NCBI GenBank assembly: GCA_001657575.1
Contig: LBCX01000005.1
Location: 1 to 38,589 of the forward strand
Direction: 5' to 3'
Length of the DNA stretch: 38,589 nt
DNA from: Bacteroidales bacterium Barb4
GTDB taxonomy: Bacteria; Bacteroidota; Bacteroidia; Bacteroidales; Tannerellaceae
The notes under the pieces were generated by a model, which ran no database searches, was not told where the DNA came from, and saw only the letters and a program-made list of their open reading frames with translations. Position 1 is the stretch's first letter, and every line of letters begins with the position of its first letter. Position numbers and translations under genes: made by a program. Below are positions 3,410 to 38,399 of this stretch, one piece after another.

Positions 3410-5059
3410 ATGAAAAAGAAAATAATATTCTTGCTTGCTGGCATTGTATCGGTTTTGTCAATGCCGTCATGTACCGATTTGGACGAGAAAGTATATGACA
3501 AAATGCAACCCGGCGACCAGTACGGCAGTACGGAAGCTGAAGTAAAAGCCATGATGGGAAACACCTACAACACCTTGAAGTCTTATTTGAACGAAAGGTT
3601 CCTGTATCTTTCCGAAAACGCAGGCTCCATGGCAGTGACACCTACACGCTACGGCGGTGACTGGTACGACGGCGGGCAGTTCCGCGAATTTTACATGCAC
3701 ACTTGGACGGCGCAGACCAGACAGATACACACGGCATGGGTATCCGCCTCCTCAGCCATCGCCACCTGCAACGCAACGATTGACATGCTCGAAAAGTCAA
3801 GTTTCTTCAAGGCTGCCAATGCTGCCCAACAGAAAGAATACATCGCCTCCATGCGCGGAGTGCGGGCATTCTGGTATTACGTCATGCTGGATAACTGGGG
3901 CAACATACCTCTTGTCACCGAGTATGAAGACCATGAAGACCTTGAACACCATGAGCATGGAGAAGGCGAACTACCCGAAATCACACCACGGCAGGAAGCA
4001 TTCGACTGGCTCGTAAAGGAAGTGAATGAAATAATCAGTGACTGTCCCGATGCCTCCGATGCCAACTACGGCAAGTTCACCCAAAAAGCCGCTTATATGC
4101 TGCTCGCCAAACTCTATCTCAATGCCGAAGCTTGGAAGGTAAACGTTGAGGGCAATGCCTATCAGGAATGTATAAAGGCTTGTAATAATATCATGGAATT
4201 GGGTGGTTATGAACTTGCTCCTAATTGGAGCGACAACTTCGCCTACACAAATCCGCGTCCGAAAGAAGCTATCCTTACAGCCTGTTACAGCGATAAGGAC
4301 GCTAATGCCGATTTCTGCTTCCGCATGATGAACCTTACCCTGCACTACTCCGACGGCGCCTCCGAAGGAGGCAGATATTCCGCTCAGAACGGTATAATCG
4401 CCCAACCCGACTATGTCCAACTGTTTGTTGACAACAATGATCCGCGCCTCAACGCCACTTTCCGTATCGGACAACGTTTCAACCAGTCCACAGGTGCTCA
4501 ATTGACGACAGGGCAGAACAACGATCCCTTAAACTACACTATCAATACGGACTTCGTTGATAACATTGGATACGATGATACCAATTGGCGCGATGTGAAG
4601 CAGGAATCCGGTGCACGTTGTCAGAAATGGCCGTATGTAAACGGTCTTGGCGGTGCCATGAATAATCACTTTCACATCTTCCGCCTCGCCGATGTCTATC
4701 TGATGAAAGCGGAAGCCATGTTCCGCGAAGGAGATGTCAGTGGTGCTACACAAATGGTAAACTATGTTCGCGAACGCGCCTACGACAGCTTCAAAAGAGA
4801 CGATGACTATGTGCCCCTTACCAATGTAAACCTTGAAAGAATAGCTTTGGAACGCAAATTAGAACTTGCATGGGAAGGCTGGTCTCGTCAGGATGACATT
4901 CGCTTCGGGACATTCGAGAAAGGATCATGGTCAGCCTCCAAGTGCGATAGAAAAGAAGGTGAGGATTTTAAGTTATTGTATCCCATACCTCTGGATGCTT
5001 GGCAGACAAATCAGAAGCTGAAACAGAATCCGGGCTATCCTAAATTCCCCAATCAATAA
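3410..5059 (+). CDS. SusD/RagB-family nutrient-binding outer membrane lipoprotein
   Basis: This is the surface lipoprotein partner of the preceding SusC protein and captures substrate above the barrel. A lipoprotein signal peptide ends at SMPSC with Cys21 as the lipidated residue. The SusD-like tetratricopeptide body follows, including RGVRAFWYYVMLDNWGNIPL (about 145-165), LADVYLMKAEAMFREG and the C-terminal ERKLELAWEGWSRQDDIRFG segment that typifies the family. At 549 residues it is full length. A strong terminator begins 12 bases after the stop codon, so the operon is just the pair. The ligand is unknown. Confidence 0.95.
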   Translation: MKKKIIFLLAGIVSVLSMPSCTDLDEKVYDKMQPGDQYGSTEAEVKAMMGNTYNTLKSYLNERFLYLSENAGSMAVTPTRYGGDWYDGGQFREFYMHTWTAQTRQIHTAWVSASSAIATCNATIDMLEKSSFFKAANAAQQKEYIASMRGVRAFWYYVMLDNWGNIPLVTEYEDHEDLEHHEHGEGELPEITPRQEAFDWLVKEVNEIISDCPDASDANYGKFTQKAAYMLLAKLYLNAEAWKVNVEGNAYQECIKACNNIMELGGYELAPNWSDNFAYTNPRPKEAILTACYSDKDANADFCFRMMNLTLHYSDGASEGGRYSAQNGIIAQPDYVQLFVDNNDPRLNATFRIGQRFNQSTGAQLTTGQNNDPLNYTINTDFVDNIGYDDTNWRDVKQESGARCQKWPYVNGLGGAMNNHFHIFRLADVYLMKAEAMFREGDVSGATQMVNYVRERAYDSFKRDDDYVPLTNVNLERIALERKLELAWEGWSRQDDIRFGTFEKGSWSASKCDRKEGEDFKLLYPIPLDAWQTNQKLKQNPGYPKFPNQ

Positions 5060-5970: not shown

Positions 5971-6320
5971 GCTATCCTTCTTTTTTAGCGGCTATTCTTC
6001 TTGAATTTCCGCTATTCTTCTTGTTTAGCCGCTATTCTTCTTGTTTAGCTGCTATTCTTCTTGTTTAGCCGCTATTCTTTTTAGCGGCTATCTTTCTTTT
6101 TTAGCTGCTATTCTTCTTGTTTAGCCGTATTCTTCTTGAATTTCCGCTATTCTTCTTTTTTAGCTGCTATCTTTCTTTTTTAGCCGCTATCTTTCTTGTT
6201 TAGCTGCTATCTTTCTTGTTTAGCTGCTATCCTTCTTGTTTAGCTGCCATCCTTCTTGTTTAGCCGCTATCCCTTTTGAATAGCAGAAATTCAGGAAGAA
6301 TAGCTGCCATCCTTTGTGAA
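5971..6320. repeat. Array of about 17 degenerate 20-bp tandem repeats
   Basis: The unit is close to GCTATTCTTCTTGTTTAGCC, with variants carrying TGAATTTCC or TTTTTTAGC. GC-rich tips (GGCTA, AGCC) alternate with pyrimidine-rich bodies on one strand. The array fills most of the gap between the 227-aa gene and the defence island. Relatives occur downstream of nifV at 15409-15560, so it is a dispersed repeat family and not a single local expansion. No coding function is apparent. Confidence 0.85.
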
Positions 6321-6711: not shown

Positions 6712-7011
6712 ATGCTTAAAAATGCTTTCTTTGTGAATCTCTTGGGTTTACCTCAAAAACATGCTGAAAAGAAGTTGCAGTGGGGTATTTTGGAAAAACA
6801 TGAAAGAGTTTGTTCTTGAAATGAGTAAAGATTTTCTTTTTGTGGGAAGCGAATATCCCCTGCAAGTGGGCAACGAGGCTGACCGTAGCATGACAGAATA
6901 TGCCATGAGCCACAGCCGCAGTCCTGCATAATTACCGAATATCAACGACTACTTATTCTGAAAGAAGCGTTGCAACATTTTTTGGAGGAGTTTATACAGT
7001 TTTTAAATTAG
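6712..7011 (+). pseudogene. Remnant of a YhcG/DUF1016-family PDDEXK nuclease
   Basis: Three short frames joined by frameshifts read like the C-terminal half of DUF1016 proteins. They are LGLPQKHAEKKLQWGILEKH (frame of 6712), then MKEFVLEMSKDFLFVGSEY and LQVGNEADRSMTEYAMSHSR (stop after SRSPA), then ITEYQRLLILKEALQHFLEE ending at TAG 7009-7011. The stretch between VGNE and EYAM that should carry the catalytic core is missing. DUF1016 proteins are common within type I restriction loci, which fits the neighbours. The KAP start codon follows after 8 bases, so the pair once formed one operon. The family call rests on remembered motifs only. Confidence 0.55.
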
Positions 7012-15408: not shown

Positions 15409-15560
15409 AGCTATTCAAAAAGTCTGGCGGCTATTCTTATTGAATAGCCGCTATTCTTTTTGAATTTCCACTAAACAAGAAAAATAGCGACAATTCAAAA
15501 AGAATAGCTCCATTCAAGAAGAATAGCGACAATTCAAGAAGTTTAGCGACAGTTCAATCA
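15409..15560. repeat. Dispersed 20-bp repeat units in opposing orientations
   Basis: Units such as GGCTATTCTTATTGAATAGC and GCTATTCTTTTTGAATTTCC match the array at 5971-6320. From about 15480 the units switch to the reverse orientation (AATAGCGACAATTCAAAAAG and variants), so the block can fold back on itself. It lies just after nifV and could protect or end the transcript. Confidence 0.7.
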
Positions 15561-19133: not shown

Positions 19134-19611
19134 TTTACAGAACCCCTAATAGGGTTTGAAACCCTGTTAGGGGTGACTGTTTTTTATGTTTTATCTCCTA
19201 AACGCTTAGGAGATTCTCCCAAGCCTCCAGGAGAAGAGACGAAACGCTTGGGAGATTCTCCTAAGCCCTTAGGAGAATCTCCTAAGCTCTTAGGCTCTTC
19301 CCAACGGTCAAAAGGCACCTCTCCGCCCCCCCTGTCGGTACCTCCACCCCCCCCTTTTAAGAGCCTAAACGCTTAGGAGATTCTCCTAAGCGTTTAGGAG
19401 ATAATCCTGGGTGCTTAGGAGAATCTCCCAAGCATTTAGGAGAATCTCCTAAGCGTTTAGGCACTTCATCCGGGCACTTCGTGCCTCATCCTGATGCCTT
19501 CGCCTCTCTTCCCGATGCCCTCGTATTTCATCCTGATGCCCTCGTATCCCCACCCCTAACAGGGTTTCAAACCCTGTTAGGGGTACTGTAAAGTTAGATA
19601 TAGTCACCATT
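19134..19611. repeat. Long intergenic repeat, copy 1 (CTTAGGAGA palindromes, hairpin-bounded)
   Basis: The core 19177-19584 consists of repeated CTTAGGAGA / TCTCCTAAG blocks forming many small palindromes such as GCTTAGGAGAATCTCCTAAG. These surround a shared spacer with AACGGTCAAAAGGCACCTCT and a pyrimidine-rich run. A second zone repeats CATCCTGATGCCCTCGTAT. Hairpins of CCCCTAACAGGGTTT and its complement bound it (19144-19174 and 19554-19584). The right edge (19586-19611) carries ACTGTAAAGTT-A-GATATAGTCACC, the terminus of the 11555-11894 element. A homologous copy lies at 30516-30917 in the same orientation. No coding potential. Confidence 0.85.
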
Positions 19612-30515: not shown

Positions 30516-30917
30516 CTGTTTTCTATGTTTTAGAGACGAAAGGCTTAGGCTTTTCTCCCAAGCCTCCAGGATAAAAGACGAAACGCTTAGGAGAAGAGAC
30601 GAAGCTCTTAGGAGATAAGCCTAAGCTCTTAGGCTCTTCAGAACGGTCAAAAGGCACCTCTCCAACCCCCCTGTCCTTACCTCCAAACACCCCTTTTAAG
30701 AGCCTAAACGCTTAGGCTTATCTCCTAAGCGTTTAGGAGATAAGGATACGCACTTGGGAGAAAAGGCTAAGCCCTTAGGAGATAAGCCTAAGCGCTTAGG
30801 CTCTTCAGGCGTGCCCTTCGTATCAAAGACTGATGCCTTCGTACCTCATCCTTGACCCTTCGTCTCTCATCCTGACGGCAGCGTACCCCTAACAGGGTTT
30901 CAAACCCTGTTAGGGGT
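30516..30917. repeat. Long intergenic repeat, copy 2
   Basis: Homologous and co-oriented with 19177-19584: the same opening (CTGTTTTCTATGTTTTA), the same CCCAAGCCTCCAGGA block, the same spacer AACGGTCAAAAGGCACCTCT, the same CTTAGGAGA palindromes and the same closing hairpin of CCCCTAACAGGGTTT with its complement (30887-30917). Differences are scattered substitutions and palindrome swaps such as GGAGATAAGCCTAAG. Confidence 0.85.
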
Positions 30918-31455: not shown

Positions 31456-31471
31456 TGGCATGGCATTTGAA
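31456..31471 (+). promoter_or_regulatory. Candidate sigma-54 promoter of the anf operon
   Basis: TGGCATGGCATTTGAA fits TGGCAY-N5-TTGC at correct spacing, except that the invariant -12 GC reads GA. It would start transcription about 28 bases before the anfH ATG. A weak or degenerate match, but I see no better candidate and no TAnnTTTG element close by. Confidence 0.4.
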
Positions 31472-31485
31472 TTATGCCTTTGTGA

Positions 31486-32334
<849 letters not shown>

Positions 32335-32355: not shown

Positions 32356-32673
32356 ATGAAAATGATCAGGGCTATCGTCCGCCCCGAAATGGCGGACAAT
32401 GTAACCGAAGGTTTGGCGGAAGCCGGTTTTAATTCCATGACCAAATCGCCGGTCTTCGGACGGGGGAAGCAAAAGGGACTCACGGTAGGATCAGCGCATT
32501 ATGACGAAATTCCCAAAATGCTGATTATTATAGTTGTGGAAGATGATGTGGTTGATGATGCGCTGAAGCTCATCCAATACAAGGCATATACGGGAAATGA
32601 AGGCGACGGTAAAATATTTGTTTCTCCGGTAGAAAAAGTACTCACGGTACGGACAGGTTCAAAAGAACTCTAA
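32356..32673 (+). CDS. nifI1: PII-family nitrogenase regulator NifI1
   Basis: This is a GlnB-like trimeric sensor of 105 residues beginning MKMIRAIVRPEMADNVTEGL and ending GDGKIFVSPVEKVLTVRTGS, the conserved PII beta-alpha-beta ends. NifI1 and NifI2 together bind nitrogenase and block its activity when ammonium is available, relieved by 2-oxoglutarate, as shown in methanogens. The T-loop segment FGRGKQKGLTVGSAHYDEIP lacks the uridylylated Tyr context of GlnB. Placement between H and D genes is the signature of NifI and not of housekeeping PII. Confidence 0.93.
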   Translation: MKMIRAIVRPEMADNVTEGLAEAGFNSMTKSPVFGRGKQKGLTVGSAHYDEIPKMLIIIVVEDDVVDDALKLIQYKAYTGNEGDGKIFVSPVEKVLTVRTGSKEL

Positions 32674-32685
32674 AATCAACCGGAA

Positions 32686-33057
32686 ATGAAAGAAATCATA
32701 GCATTTATCCGCCCCAGTAAAATGAGTGCCACCAAAAAGGCACTTGATGCACTTGATATTCCTTCCGTTACCGCTATTCCGGTATTGGGACGCGGAAATC
32801 AGCGGGGACTCAACACCACTTTGAGCGGCATTGACATCCCCCAGAAATTACTGGCACAAAAACGGACAATGGGTATGAAATTCATACCCAAGCGAATGTT
32901 GGTAATTGTTGCCAAAGACAAAGACGTGGACGCAATTATAGGAGCTCTTGTGAAAGCAAACTGGACAGGCTACATCGGCGACGGCAAGATATTCGTTTGC
33001 CCGACCGATGACGCCCTCCGCGTGAGAACCAATGAAACCGGATACGCCGCATTGTAA
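32686..33057 (+). CDS. nifI2: PII-family nitrogenase regulator NifI2
   Basis: This second PII-like subunit has 123 residues, starting MKEIIAFIRPSKMSATKKAL, with a longer T-loop (LGRGNQRGLNTTLSGIDIPQ then KLLAQKRTMGMKFIPKRML) as expected for NifI2, and a C-terminal GYIGDGKIFVCPTDDALRVR. It acts with NifI1 in post-translational switch-off. It lies 12 bases after nifI1 and 24 before anfD, and is co-transcribed. Confidence 0.93.
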   Translation: MKEIIAFIRPSKMSATKKALDALDIPSVTAIPVLGRGNQRGLNTTLSGIDIPQKLLAQKRTMGMKFIPKRMLVIVAKDKDVDAIIGALVKANWTGYIGDGKIFVCPTDDALRVRTNETGYAAL

Positions 33058-33060
33058 TAG

Positions 33061-34689
<1,629 letters not shown>

Positions 34690-34695
34690 ACCAAA

Positions 34696-34715
34696 CAAGG
34701 GAGCATGCTCCCTTG
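34696..34715. promoter_or_regulatory. 20-bp perfect palindrome between anfD and anfG
   Basis: CAAGGGAGCATGCTCCCTTG sits 6 bases after the anfD stop and 16 before the anfG start. It would form a very stable RNA hairpin inside the operon. No T-run follows, so it is more likely a processing, stability or attenuation element than a full terminator. Confidence 0.7.
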
Positions 34716-34731
34716 ATAATACAATAAAGAT

Positions 34732-35088
34732 ATGAACGAAAAGACAGCTCAGGAAAGAATGGAGCAATTGGAATGGTACATCACCAAACATTGTCTGTGG
34801 CAATACAATTCGCGCGGTTGGGACAGGGAAATGCAAAACGAACACATCCTCGGAAAGACCAAACAGTTGTTGTGCGGAGAAAATGCAAGGAAAGAAGACA
34901 CGTATGCTGACCGCTACTATTGGTGCGAAGCCAAAACATTGGTCGAGGCATTCAAAAAATATTTCCCATGGCTGAATGAAATGGACAAAAAAGACATCGC
35001 CACAGTCATACACCTGCTGAAAGAGAAAATGGATTACACCATGATTAAAGGTTCCCTGAATCAGGAACTGACAAAAGAAAAATATTAA
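34732..35088 (+). CDS. anfG: Iron-only nitrogenase delta chain
   Basis: AnfG is the small subunit found only in V- and Fe-nitrogenases, binding AnfD on the outside of the complex. The protein has 118 residues with the family features QLEWYITKHCLWQYNSRGWD, ENI-like QNEHILGKTKQLLCGE, DRYYWCEAKTLVEAFKKYFP and a C-terminal helix. Size and position between D and K are exactly as expected. It is the strongest single marker here that this is not a molybdenum enzyme. Confidence 0.95.
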   Translation: MNEKTAQERMEQLEWYITKHCLWQYNSRGWDREMQNEHILGKTKQLLCGENARKEDTYADRYYWCEAKTLVEAFKKYFPWLNEMDKKDIATVIHLLKEKMDYTMIKGSLNQELTKEKY

Positions 35089-35100
35089 AATCGAAAGAAT

Positions 35101-36489
35101 ATGAGCTGCGAATTAAAAATAAAAGAGCGTACAGGCGTTATCAATCCTATCTTCACCTGCCAGCCGGCGGGCGCACAATATGCAAGCATCGGTATCAAAG
35201 ACTGTATCGGGCTTGTGCATGGCGGGCAGGGTTGCGTGATGTTTGTCCGCCTCTTGTTCTCCCAACATTTCAAGGAGAGTTTTGAGCTTGCTTCCACTTC
35301 ACTGCACGAAGACGCTGCCGTATTCGGTGCGCTCCATCGCGTAGAGCAGGGCGTGGACGTGTTGCTGATGCGTTATCCGCATGTCAAGGTAATTCCGATT
35401 ATCACCACCTGCGCAACGGAAGTCATCGGTGACGACGTCGATGGTCTGGTGCTGAAATTGAATGCCGGACTGCTGAAAGAAAAGTATGCCGACCGCGAAG
35501 TACACCTCATTCCTATCCATACGCCCAGTTTTGTGGGAAGCATGATTTCCGGTTACGACGTTGCCGTGAAGGATTTTGTCAGCTATTTTGCCAAAAAAGA
35601 AGACAAGGCAAACGGAAAAATCAATCTGATTACCGGTTGGGTGAATCCGGGCGATGTAACGGAACTGAAATCATTGCTGAGCGAAATGCAGGTGGATGCA
35701 ACCGTCCTCTTTGAAATCGAAACTTTCGATTCTCCCCTGATGCCCGACGGCAATCACGTGTCGCACGGCGAGACCACCATCGAAGATCTGCAAAGCACGG
35801 CAAACGCCATCGGCACCATCGCCCTCAACCGCTACGAAGGCGGCAAGGCGGCAGAGTTTCTGCATAATGAGTTTGACGTTCCGGCAATCATCGGGCCTAC
35901 GCCGATAGGCATCCGCAATACGGACATCTTTTTGCAGAACGTAAAGAAATTAACGGGCAAAGCCATTCCCGAATCGCTGGTGCGCAAACGGGGTATTGCC
36001 ATCGACGCCATCGCCGACTTGTCCCACATGTTTCTTGCCGGCAAAAAGGTAGCCATCTACGGAAACCCCGATTTGGTCATCGGACTTGCTCAATACTGCA
36101 TTGATTTGGAAATGCAACCCGTACTGGTTCTTTTGGGCGATGATAATGCAAATTATAAGAACGACCCCCGCATAGCGGAGTTGAAAGCGAATGTGGATTT
36201 TGACATGGAAATTGTAACCAATGCCGACCTCTGGGACTTGGAACGCCGCATCAAGGAAGGTCTCCAGCTTGACCTTATCCTTGGAAATTCCAAAGGGCGT
36301 TTTGTCTCAATAGACAACAACGTTCCGATGCTGCGTGTCAGCTTCCCGGTGTACGACCGCGCAGGACATTACCGCTACCCGGTAGTGGGTTACGCCGGTG
36401 CGATATGGCTCGCCGAGGAAATGGCAAACACCATTTTCTCCGACATGGAATACAAGCACCACAAAGAATGGGTGTTGGGTGTATGGTAA
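35101..36489 (+). CDS. anfK: Iron-only nitrogenase beta chain
   Basis: AnfK pairs with AnfD to form the catalytic heterodimer and holds the other half of the P-cluster. Ligands are Cys20 (IFTCQPAGAQYA), Cys45 (GGQGCVMFVR) and Cys104 (ITTCATEVIGDD). The 462-residue length matches AnfK/VnfK, which lack the longer N-terminus of NifK. The C-terminal PVVGYAGAIWLAEEMANTIF is typical. Its stop codon region overlaps the start of the next gene by 7 bases, so translation is probably coupled. Confidence 0.95.
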   Translation: MSCELKIKERTGVINPIFTCQPAGAQYASIGIKDCIGLVHGGQGCVMFVRLLFSQHFKESFELASTSLHEDAAVFGALHRVEQGVDVLLMRYPHVKVIPIITTCATEVIGDDVDGLVLKLNAGLLKEKYADREVHLIPIHTPSFVGSMISGYDVAVKDFVSYFAKKEDKANGKINLITGWVNPGDVTELKSLLSEMQVDATVLFEIETFDSPLMPDGNHVSHGETTIEDLQSTANAIGTIALNRYEGGKAAEFLHNEFDVPAIIGPTPIGIRNTDIFLQNVKKLTGKAIPESLVRKRGIAIDAIADLSHMFLAGKKVAIYGNPDLVIGLAQYCIDLEMQPVLVLLGDDNANYKNDPRIAELKANVDFDMEIVTNADLWDLERRIKEGLQLDLILGNSKGRFVSIDNNVPMLRVSFPVYDRAGHYRYPVVGYAGAIWLAEEMANTIFSDMEYKHHKEWVLGVW

Positions 36490-36866
36490 GACCGGTACAA
36501 TCATTTAAGGAAGATTATCATGACGCCAAAGCCTACCACCGGCGGGCTTTGCAATATCGGGACGCACAACAGCCCGCAAGCCTCGTGTTCAACGTCGCCT
36601 CCGTATCGCTTGAGCGTTACTTGGTGGCGTTGTGCGAATTACATGGCGTGGAACCGATGAGTCATAATTTCATCAATCTGGCACAGGAAGTGTGCCGGTT
36701 GGTTGAAATTCCGCACGAACTGAGCCGCGACATACGCTCGCTCGACCATATTTTCGGTATCTGTTTTCTTGATGAATACCACCACGGCACGCCCGAAGTT
36801 GCCGACATGGAAAAAGTGGTGCGGCTGTGCGATGAAGTTCAGGGACTTTTTGACAATCAACCTTGA
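36483..36866 (+). CDS. Small helical protein in the anf operon (AnfR-position, HEPN-like)
   Basis: The start is placed at ATG 36483, which overlaps the anfK end. The longer frame back to 36405 would run through anfK. The 127-residue product is all-helical in appearance (YHDAKAYHRRALQYRDAQQP, SVSLERYLVALCELHGVEPM, SHNFINLAQEVCRLVEIP) and resembles HEPN four-helix bundles. The gene occupies a place downstream of anfK comparable to anfO/anfR in Azotobacter, so an AnfR-type maturation or assembly role is possible. I could not confirm AnfR homology from memory, hence no symbol. Its stop codon lies inside the first unit of the 41-bp repeat array. Confidence 0.8.
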   Translation: MVRPVQSFKEDYHDAKAYHRRALQYRDAQQPASLVFNVASVSLERYLVALCELHGVEPMSHNFINLAQEVCRLVEIPHELSRDIRSLDHIFGICFLDEYHHGTPEVADMEKVVRLCDEVQGLFDNQP

Positions 36867-37106
36867 ATTTGGTAAATTCAGACTTGATTGCACGCAATCG
36901 ACCTTGAAAACGACAAATTCAGACTTGATTGTATACAATCGACCACGAATTCGACAAATTCAGACTTGATTGTATACAATTGACCACGAATTCGGCAAAT
37001 TCAGACTTGATTGCACGCAATCGACCTTGAAAACGACGAATTCAGACTTGATTATACGCAATCAACCTTGAAAACGGCAAATTCAGACTTGTTTGCAAAA
37101 TTTGCG
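36861..37106. repeat. Six 41-bp tandem repeats inside the anf operon
   Basis: Units start at 36861, 36902, 36943, 36984, 37025 and 37066 with no spacing. Each has CCWYGAAWWCGRCAAATTCA, then GACTTGATTG, four variable bases and CAATCGA. The dyad GATTG-N4-CAATC is a full palindrome (GATTGTATACAATC) in units 2 and 3 (with a one-base change at the end of unit 3), and the last unit is degenerate. The first unit overlaps the final two codons (CCT TGA) of the preceding gene. Confidence 0.92.
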
Positions 37107-37141: not shown

Positions 37142-37666
37142 ATGACAGAAATACAACACCAACCGACACATCCGCACGGCAGCGGCGAAGGACATCCGCA
37201 CGGCATCATGCGCCGCAAGGAACGGGAAATTACCGACCGTGCAGAAATTGATGCCATTGTTTATGGCGAAAAAGTAATGCACTTGGCACTTTCGGACAAC
37301 AACACGCCCTTTCTCGTGCCGCTGTTTTACGCCTACGACGGCAATTCGCTTTATTTCCATGCCGCCAAAGCGGGGACAAAGATTGAAATCCTGAAACGCA
37401 ACAATAACGTCTGCTTTGAAATCTATACCGGTTTCAGTATCATCGAAGACGACAAAGCCTGCGATTTTGAAGCACGACACCACACGGTAATCGGCTTCGG
37501 AAAAGCCTTTTTTGTGGAGGACGAAAACGAGAAAATCGCCGCCCTCAACAAAATTGTCGGACTGTTTACCGACAAAAAGTTTGAATTTCCCAAAGGCAAT
37601 CTCAATGCCACAAACGTCATCCGCATTGATATTGATTTGATAAAAGGAAAGAAACACGGATATTAA
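37142..37666 (+). CDS. PPOX split-barrel flavin/haem-binding-type protein in the anf operon
   Basis: This is a 174-residue member of the pyridoxamine-phosphate-oxidase-like split-barrel superfamily. The core begins MRRKEREITDRAEIDAIVYG and continues LALSDNNTPFLVPLFYAYDG and SLYFHAAKAGTKIEILKRNN, the pattern of NimA-type flavin-binding proteins. In front is an unusual His/Pro/Gly stretch (HQPTHPHGSGEGHPHG) with five His that could bind metal or haem. Between anfK and anfO its likely role is redox or oxygen protection. Azotobacter Anf3, an oxidase with haem and flavin encoded with the Fe-nitrogenase genes, is a possible functional parallel, but orthology is not shown. The ATG at 37142 follows the repeat array by 35 bases. 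Confidence 0.85.
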   Translation: MTEIQHQPTHPHGSGEGHPHGIMRRKEREITDRAEIDAIVYGEKVMHLALSDNNTPFLVPLFYAYDGNSLYFHAAKAGTKIEILKRNNNVCFEIYTGFSIIEDDKACDFEARHHTVIGFGKAFFVEDENEKIAALNKIVGLFTDKKFEFPKGNLNATNVIRIDIDLIKGKKHGY

Positions 37667-38367: not shown

Positions 38368-38399
38368 AGAACCCCTAACAGGGTTTGAAACCCTGTTAC
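38368..38399. repeat. CCCCTAACAGGGTTT hairpin downstream of anfO
   Basis: A further copy of the hairpin that bounds the long repeats, again preceded by TTTACAGA, with the right arm cut short (AAACCCTGTTACC). It can form a 12-13 bp stem directly after the operon and may act as its 3' end structure. Confidence 0.7.

Follow-up and report, generated by a model that had tools for sequence, protein, structure and literature searches.

A perfect palindrome between anfD and anfG of a Bacteroidales Fe-only nitrogenase operon: most likely a local, lineage-private mRNA hairpin

What does a perfect palindrome do between two structural genes of a nitrogenase operon? The question is raised by the window analysed here, a stretch of 38,589 nt from Bacteroidales bacterium Barb4 (contig LBCX01000005.1), the plus strand of which carries an Fe-only nitrogenase operon in the order anfH-nifI1-nifI2-anfD-anfG-anfK. 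It comprises anfH (31510-32334; nitrogenase iron protein, TIGR01287), two P-II genes that we here call nifI1 and nifI2 (32356-33057, with the single genes at 32356-32673 and 32686-33057; NCBIfam/Pfam models), anfD (33082-34689; alpha chain of the Fe-only nitrogenase, TIGR01861, 1021 bits), anfG (34732-35088; delta chain, TIGR02929, 177 bits) and anfK (35101-36489; beta chain, TIGR02931, 895 bits), where the names anfD, anfG and anfK stand for NCBIfam matches above the curated cut-offs. From anfH to anfK, the successive gaps measure 21, 12, 24, 42 and 12 nt. With anfH, two glnB-like genes, anfD, anfG and anfK in this order, the operon has the layout of an anfHDGK cluster with two P-II genes, and PMC4356463 reports the same arrangement for Paludibacter propionicigenes, whose anfHDGK likewise has two glnB-like genes inserted after anfH and ahead of anfD. 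A sigma-54-like promoter element, TGGCATGGCATTTGAA, lies on the plus strand at 31456-31471, 38 nt ahead of the anfH ATG; the pattern used for this and all further sigma-54-like elements (TGGCAYG, four bases, T/A-TG) follows the sigma-54 consensus. Beyond the structural genes, a small ORF after anfK (36405-36866) is without NCBIfam or Pfam match, and an ORF ahead of anfO (37142-37666) gives sub-cutoff matches to Nim nitroimidazole-reductase models. Both occur in the same six of six relatives whose loci extend past anfK, and both would seem to be regular components of the cluster.

The palindrome, CAAGGGAGCATGCTCCCTTG, occupies positions 34696-34715 on the plus strand. Exact matching and an inverted-repeat scan both return it as a perfect 20-bp palindrome with zero spacer, which reproduces the sequence, coordinates and flawless symmetry described in the earlier note. 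The same note placed it in one of the longest gaps of the structural genes, and the anfD-anfG gap (34690-34731, plus strand) is, with its 42 nt, indeed the longest of the five between anfH and anfK. In the mRNA, the palindrome can form an 8-bp stem (CAAGGGAG/CTCCCTTG) capped by a CAUG loop; the stem begins 6 nt past the anfD stop codon and ends 16 nt ahead of the anfG ATG, and no U-tract follows it on the plus strand. So is such a structure to be expected by chance? When the 42-nt gap was shuffled 20,000 times with its dinucleotide composition kept, a perfect stem of at least 8 bp arose 18 times, and the minimum free energy (MFE) of the gap, -12.8 kcal/mol compared to a shuffle mean of -3.8 kcal/mol, was equally low in 1 of 1000 shuffles. 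For the wider 101-nt stretch the fold signal is weaker (z of -2.03), with 9 of 200 shuffles folding equally well. By length alone, at 4^-10 per position, some 3 perfect 20-bp palindromes are expected per 3.33-Mb genome and 0.04 per window, and therefore it is placement, more than length, that makes this palindrome unusual. Stronger inverted repeats exist in the window: 15 have longer arms than CAAGGGAGCATGCTCCCTTG, several of them being parts of dispersed or tandem repeats, and one with equal 10-nt arms is found at 32870-32890, inside nifI2. In our view, the palindrome at 34696-34715 is real, and is most likely an ordinary, lineage-private local mRNA hairpin rather than a conserved regulator of nitrogenase.

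The comparison with related operons is central to this view. Within the family, 4 of 123 genomes encode relatives of AnfG, namely that of the window and 3 others; further relatives come from six named records, comprising one Ca. Symbiothrix, four Dysgonomonadaceae MAGs and Parabacteroides sp. Marseille-P3160, the last of which has the same locus as G028 and was counted once, giving eight genomes of relatives in total. Wider searches yielded no further close anf operons, either in the order (1 of 393 genomes, its own) or among relatives (4 of 394, all already counted). Six relatives have a contiguous anfD-anfG junction (L005, L006, L007, L008, L009 and L012, after merging the duplicates L004 and L061 with L009, L062 with L005 and L063 with L006); L010 and L011, in which anfD is not adjacent, were left out of this count. 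An equivalent hairpin is present at none of these six junctions, as five have no stem of such size and the gap of L008 is unrelated. In the order given, their gaps measure 24, 24, 50, 161, 18 and 39 nt, and the longest perfect stem within the first 80 nt past the anfD stop is 5, 5, 4, 3, 3 and 6 bp, compared to 8 bp in the window. The 161-nt gap of L008 folds strongly as a whole (-42 kcal/mol), with the large fold outside the 80-nt range, and pieces of it recur in its own genome at 18 other matches (6 to the hairpin part, 11 to the AT-rich tail and 1 elsewhere). The 50-nt gap of L007 has the hexamer GCATGC in common with the window palindrome, which we take as chance. Among 395 genomes of the phylum we found 11 distant anf operons, and in the ten that are readable (anfD of L040 is not) the anfD stop is followed by the first ATG after 1-17 nt, which is too short for such a hairpin. 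Covariation in related anf operons, proposed in the earlier note as a check, thus offers nothing to count: with no homologous hairpin at any of the six contiguous junctions, five of which were aligned, there is neither covariation nor any sign of a conserved device. A conserved structured RNA finds no support at the relatives' junctions examined, and Rfam covariance models gave no match at the gathering threshold in the whole window.

The palindrome is equally solitary within its own genome. Its 14-bp core occurs a single time in the 3.33 Mb when up to 1 mismatch is allowed, and the full 20-mer at up to 3 mismatches is found in one other place, on contig C452, in what is apparently coding sequence. 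Furthermore, the core is absent from all 8 genomes of anf-bearing relatives, and the exact 20-mer has no match in viral_contigs. With a core that is single-copy at up to 1 mismatch, assignment to REP or other dispersed palindromic repeats gains no support. A different perfect palindrome, CCCTAACAGGGTTTnAAACCCTGTTAGGG, has 173 copies in the same genome when as many as 3 mismatches are allowed; in the window its copies lie at 19552-19584, 30885-30917 and 38376-38398, and several of the listed copies are situated near contig ends. As a separate observation, tandem arrays of unlike sequence have a common period of 20-23 bp in 60 of the 91 arrays of a 598-kb sample of the genome, with exactly 21 bp in 35. 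The arrays of the window (5971-6272, 15476-15557, 19193-19548, 30568-30800 and 36874-37097, the last with a period of 41) all lie between listed ORFs, and the anf loci of relatives show tandem periods of 21, 42 and 23 among others; in one of these relatives, G904, the nifI1-nifI2 gap of the anf operon is occupied by nine 42-bp repeat units (L134, 4442-4813). A literature search on arrays of 20-23-bp period gave nothing relevant.

What, then, might the hairpin do? Tentatively, we favour a single-copy, lineage-private and non-terminating hairpin that acts as a 3' barrier for the anfH-D part of the transcript. Because there is no U-tract, RNA polymerase would most likely read through the hairpin, leaving anfHI1I2DGK as one mRNA. 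Once the mRNA is cut beyond the hairpin, or is degraded from its 3' end through the GK part, exonucleases would meet the 8-bp stem, which would slow them and might so prolong the life of the anfH-I1-I2-D part; an effect on the ratio of the encoded proteins is conceivable as well. The sense-strand tail, ATAATACAAT, contains 3 U in 10 positions and no U-run. According to PMC8219983, operon stem-loops count as 'stabilisers' when they are poor in U and lack a poly-U tail, and the window hairpin agrees with this as a stable intra-operonic stem-loop (-12.8 kcal/mol, the threshold being -5 kcal/mol) with low U and no poly-U, an assignment made by MFE and U content. Of the earlier note's suggestion that a hairpin here may protect the upstream mRNA, the hairpin in the intercistronic gap is borne out by fold and shuffles, and protection is possible in that the tail fits the 'stabiliser' rule; the conservation among relatives that would have accompanied it did not appear.

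Known systems provide partial parallels. In PMC8219983, the intra-operonic stabiliser stem-loops of Clostridium operons with selective RNA processing and stabilisation (SRPS) likewise follow just past a gene stop inside an operon, without a U-tail; the window stem, at -12.8 kcal/mol, is slightly weaker than any of the four examined in that work, which range from -13.5 to -24.0 kcal/mol. Clostridium belongs to a different phylum, however, and the window hairpin is private. For Anabaena variabilis, PMC4284476 reports stem-loops near the processing sites of nifH1, vnfH1 and vnfDG, and half-lives that fall downstream of nifH1. These stem-loops are similar in that they lie within a nitrogenase gene cluster and are suggested to set transcript stability, but they sit where the transcript is processed and are called conserved in that study, whereas the window hairpin stands after anfD and is private. 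Among open-licence PMC papers, none was found that mentions a stem-loop together with anfG and nitrogenase, and the single one with anfHDGK, transcripts and a hairpin compares Kosakonia genomes; by title, none of the papers listed deals with a hairpin or terminator at anfG.

In a sample of the genome, stems of this kind occur in 7 of 116 short codirectional gaps, compared to a shuffle mean of 0.8 and a maximum of 4 (200 shuffles), an excess that is inflated by the way in which part of the sample was picked. At gaps of up to 100 nt, 4 of 99 have such a stem (shuffle mean 0.69, maximum 3), and at up to 60 nt the excess shrinks to 2 of 75 (shuffle mean 0.28), a count that shuffles reached as well. 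The sample consists of the 598 kb mentioned above, 18% of the genome, in 81 stretches. The inflation arises since 20 of these were picked for a palindrome hit on their contig (in 19 cases of the 173-copy repeat and in 1 from the 20-mer search), some of them ending at a copy; another 60 were chosen by contig number, two of which (C290 and C350) are on the 173-copy list as well. Two of the seven stems are themselves the 173-copy repeat, and the genes flanking the four other non-repeat stems (8 proteins) are not evidently operons for subunits of a complex. Two further points count against the barrier, namely that relatives do not conserve it and that its stem is weaker than all four tested in PMC8219983. 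Given the missing conservation and the inflated excess in the genome sample, we place the 3' barrier somewhat below an even chance, and a hairpin without function nearly as high.

This latter explanation holds that the palindrome is neutral or nearly so, of recent origin (through template switching, for instance, or a small insertion), and tolerated because it touches neither coding region and keeps clear of the anfG start; we consider it possible, if doubtful. It agrees with a core that is found in its own genome only, and with a gap which, minus the palindrome, would be 22 nt long and thus like those of L005, L006 and L009 (24, 24 and 18 nt). The anf gaps of relatives also carry idiosyncratic inserts, with 161 nt between anfD and anfG and 351 nt between anfG and anfK in L008, 142 nt between anfG and anfK in L009, 144 nt between anfH and nifI1 in L012, and the nifI1-nifI2 array of L134. 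Moreover, chance alone should give a genome of such size around three perfect 20-bp palindromes, and the hairpin barely alters the predicted accessibility of the anfG start (mean unpaired 0.80 with and 0.86 without it), a result by which control of anfG translation was rejected. What neutrality explains less well is that only 18 of 20,000 gap shuffles match, and the perfect arms point to either youth or selection. Membership in a REP- or MITE-like family of mobile or dispersed palindromic repeats could draw on a genome rich in such repeats, one of them with 173 copies, and on the dispersed-repeat pieces at the same junction in L008. The single-copy core, its absence from the eight relatives and the lack of exact 20-mer matches in viral_contigs make this very improbable, and this assembly gives no support for a multicopy family at the present day.

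Would a signal for transcription explain the palindrome better? That a terminator or attenuator, weak or conditional, follows anfD and lowers transcription of anfGK seems to us quite unlikely. G904 does have a terminator-like hairpin at the same place, and a sigma-70-like site at 34634-34661, within the last part of anfD, might in principle allow transcription to start anew, though as a 9/12 match only, from a scan that returned 22 sites where 12.9 are expected. Yet there is no U-tract on the plus strand, the gap contains no sigma-54-like element (the nearest upstream hit, at 34081-34096, is inside anfD), and AnfG should equal AnfD and AnfK in amount, a point made in the earlier note that is in line with the AnfDGK composition of the enzyme. 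An intrinsic, rho-independent terminator was rejected, as the tail ATAATACAAT with its 3 U has no run and the terminator scan does not list the plus strand; it lists the site on the minus strand only, from which no gene is read at the D-G junction. The perfect dyad symmetry with zero spacer could also suit a DNA-level site for a regulator inside the operon, but such a site would be expected at a promoter, and no second place in the genome has the core with 1 mismatch or fewer (one has the 20-mer with 3 mismatches, apparently in coding sequence), so that we see very little likelihood in it.

The same junction looks different in two relatives, where anfG and anfK are found away from anfD. In G904, they are located behind hisG and hisD (L011, 1499-5768) and include the only AnfG match of that genome; the anfK ORF starts at 4371 (entered as 4377 in the gap comparison). 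The sole close AnfD of G904 (90% identity, the next best having at most 35%) is encoded on a separate contig, after anfH and two P-II genes (L134, 3222-6913). There, 13 nt past the anfD stop, follows a hairpin (6872-6913) with a 19-bp AU-rich stem containing 3 G-C pairs, which folds at -19.4 kcal/mol, runs into a U-run and passes the terminator scan; the remaining 4.8 kb of the contig after anfD contain no AnfG or AnfK. This hairpin shares with that of the window its position shortly past the anfD stop, but its stem is AU-rich, leads into a U-run and is followed by no anfG, whereas the window hairpin is GC-rich, lacks a U-run and stands in an unsplit operon. In G903, the anfG contig (L010) has just 75 nt ahead of anfG and lacks anfD there, and AnfD (89%) is encoded on another contig (L135), where no AnfG or AnfK was found in the 3.4 kb after anfD and a match to the transposase model DDE_Tnp_ISAZ013 lies about 0.8 kb after it.

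Upstream of both split anfG genes (L010 and L011) we find TTTGGTACGGATTTTG, which fits the sigma-54 consensus. Sigma-54-like elements also precede anfH in the window, in L007 (110-125, starting 79 nt ahead of the ATG and thus farther than the others), L009 (695-710), L012 (604-619) and L135. Together with the split anfG of L010 and L011, these make seven of eight upstream regions with a score of at least 16.5, the one below being that of anfH in L134; the threshold is loose, with 377 hits in 446,522 strand-bases, and both anfG elements score exactly 16.5. The sigma-54-like promoters of the split anfG genes are accordingly to be taken as putative, and MAG assembly or binning could mislead here. 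Since anfGK stands apart from anfD in two relatives, one mRNA for D and G is not obligatory. Together with the missing conservation, this weakens the argument of the earlier note that a hairpin at this position may tune subunit stoichiometry. Could the anfD/anfG junction in these Bacteroidales (the named relatives being Dysgonomonadaceae MAGs, Ca. Symbiothrix MAGs and a Parabacteroides) then be a labile border of transcription units? One relative would have a terminator-like hairpin and a relocated anfGK, another unrelated sequence and a transposase match, and both a sigma-54-like element before anfG, with the window hairpin as a third way to uncouple the HD and GK mRNAs. We regard this as unlikely.

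By itself, the hairpin is of little import, and at most adds one further case to the known intercistronic stem-loops. Of more interest is a by-product, namely that two relatives have the D-G junction split. If the border is indeed labile, levels of the delta and beta subunits would be set apart from that of the alpha subunit. The relatives with split operons provide natural experiments on whether the subunits of the Fe-only nitrogenase must come from one transcript.
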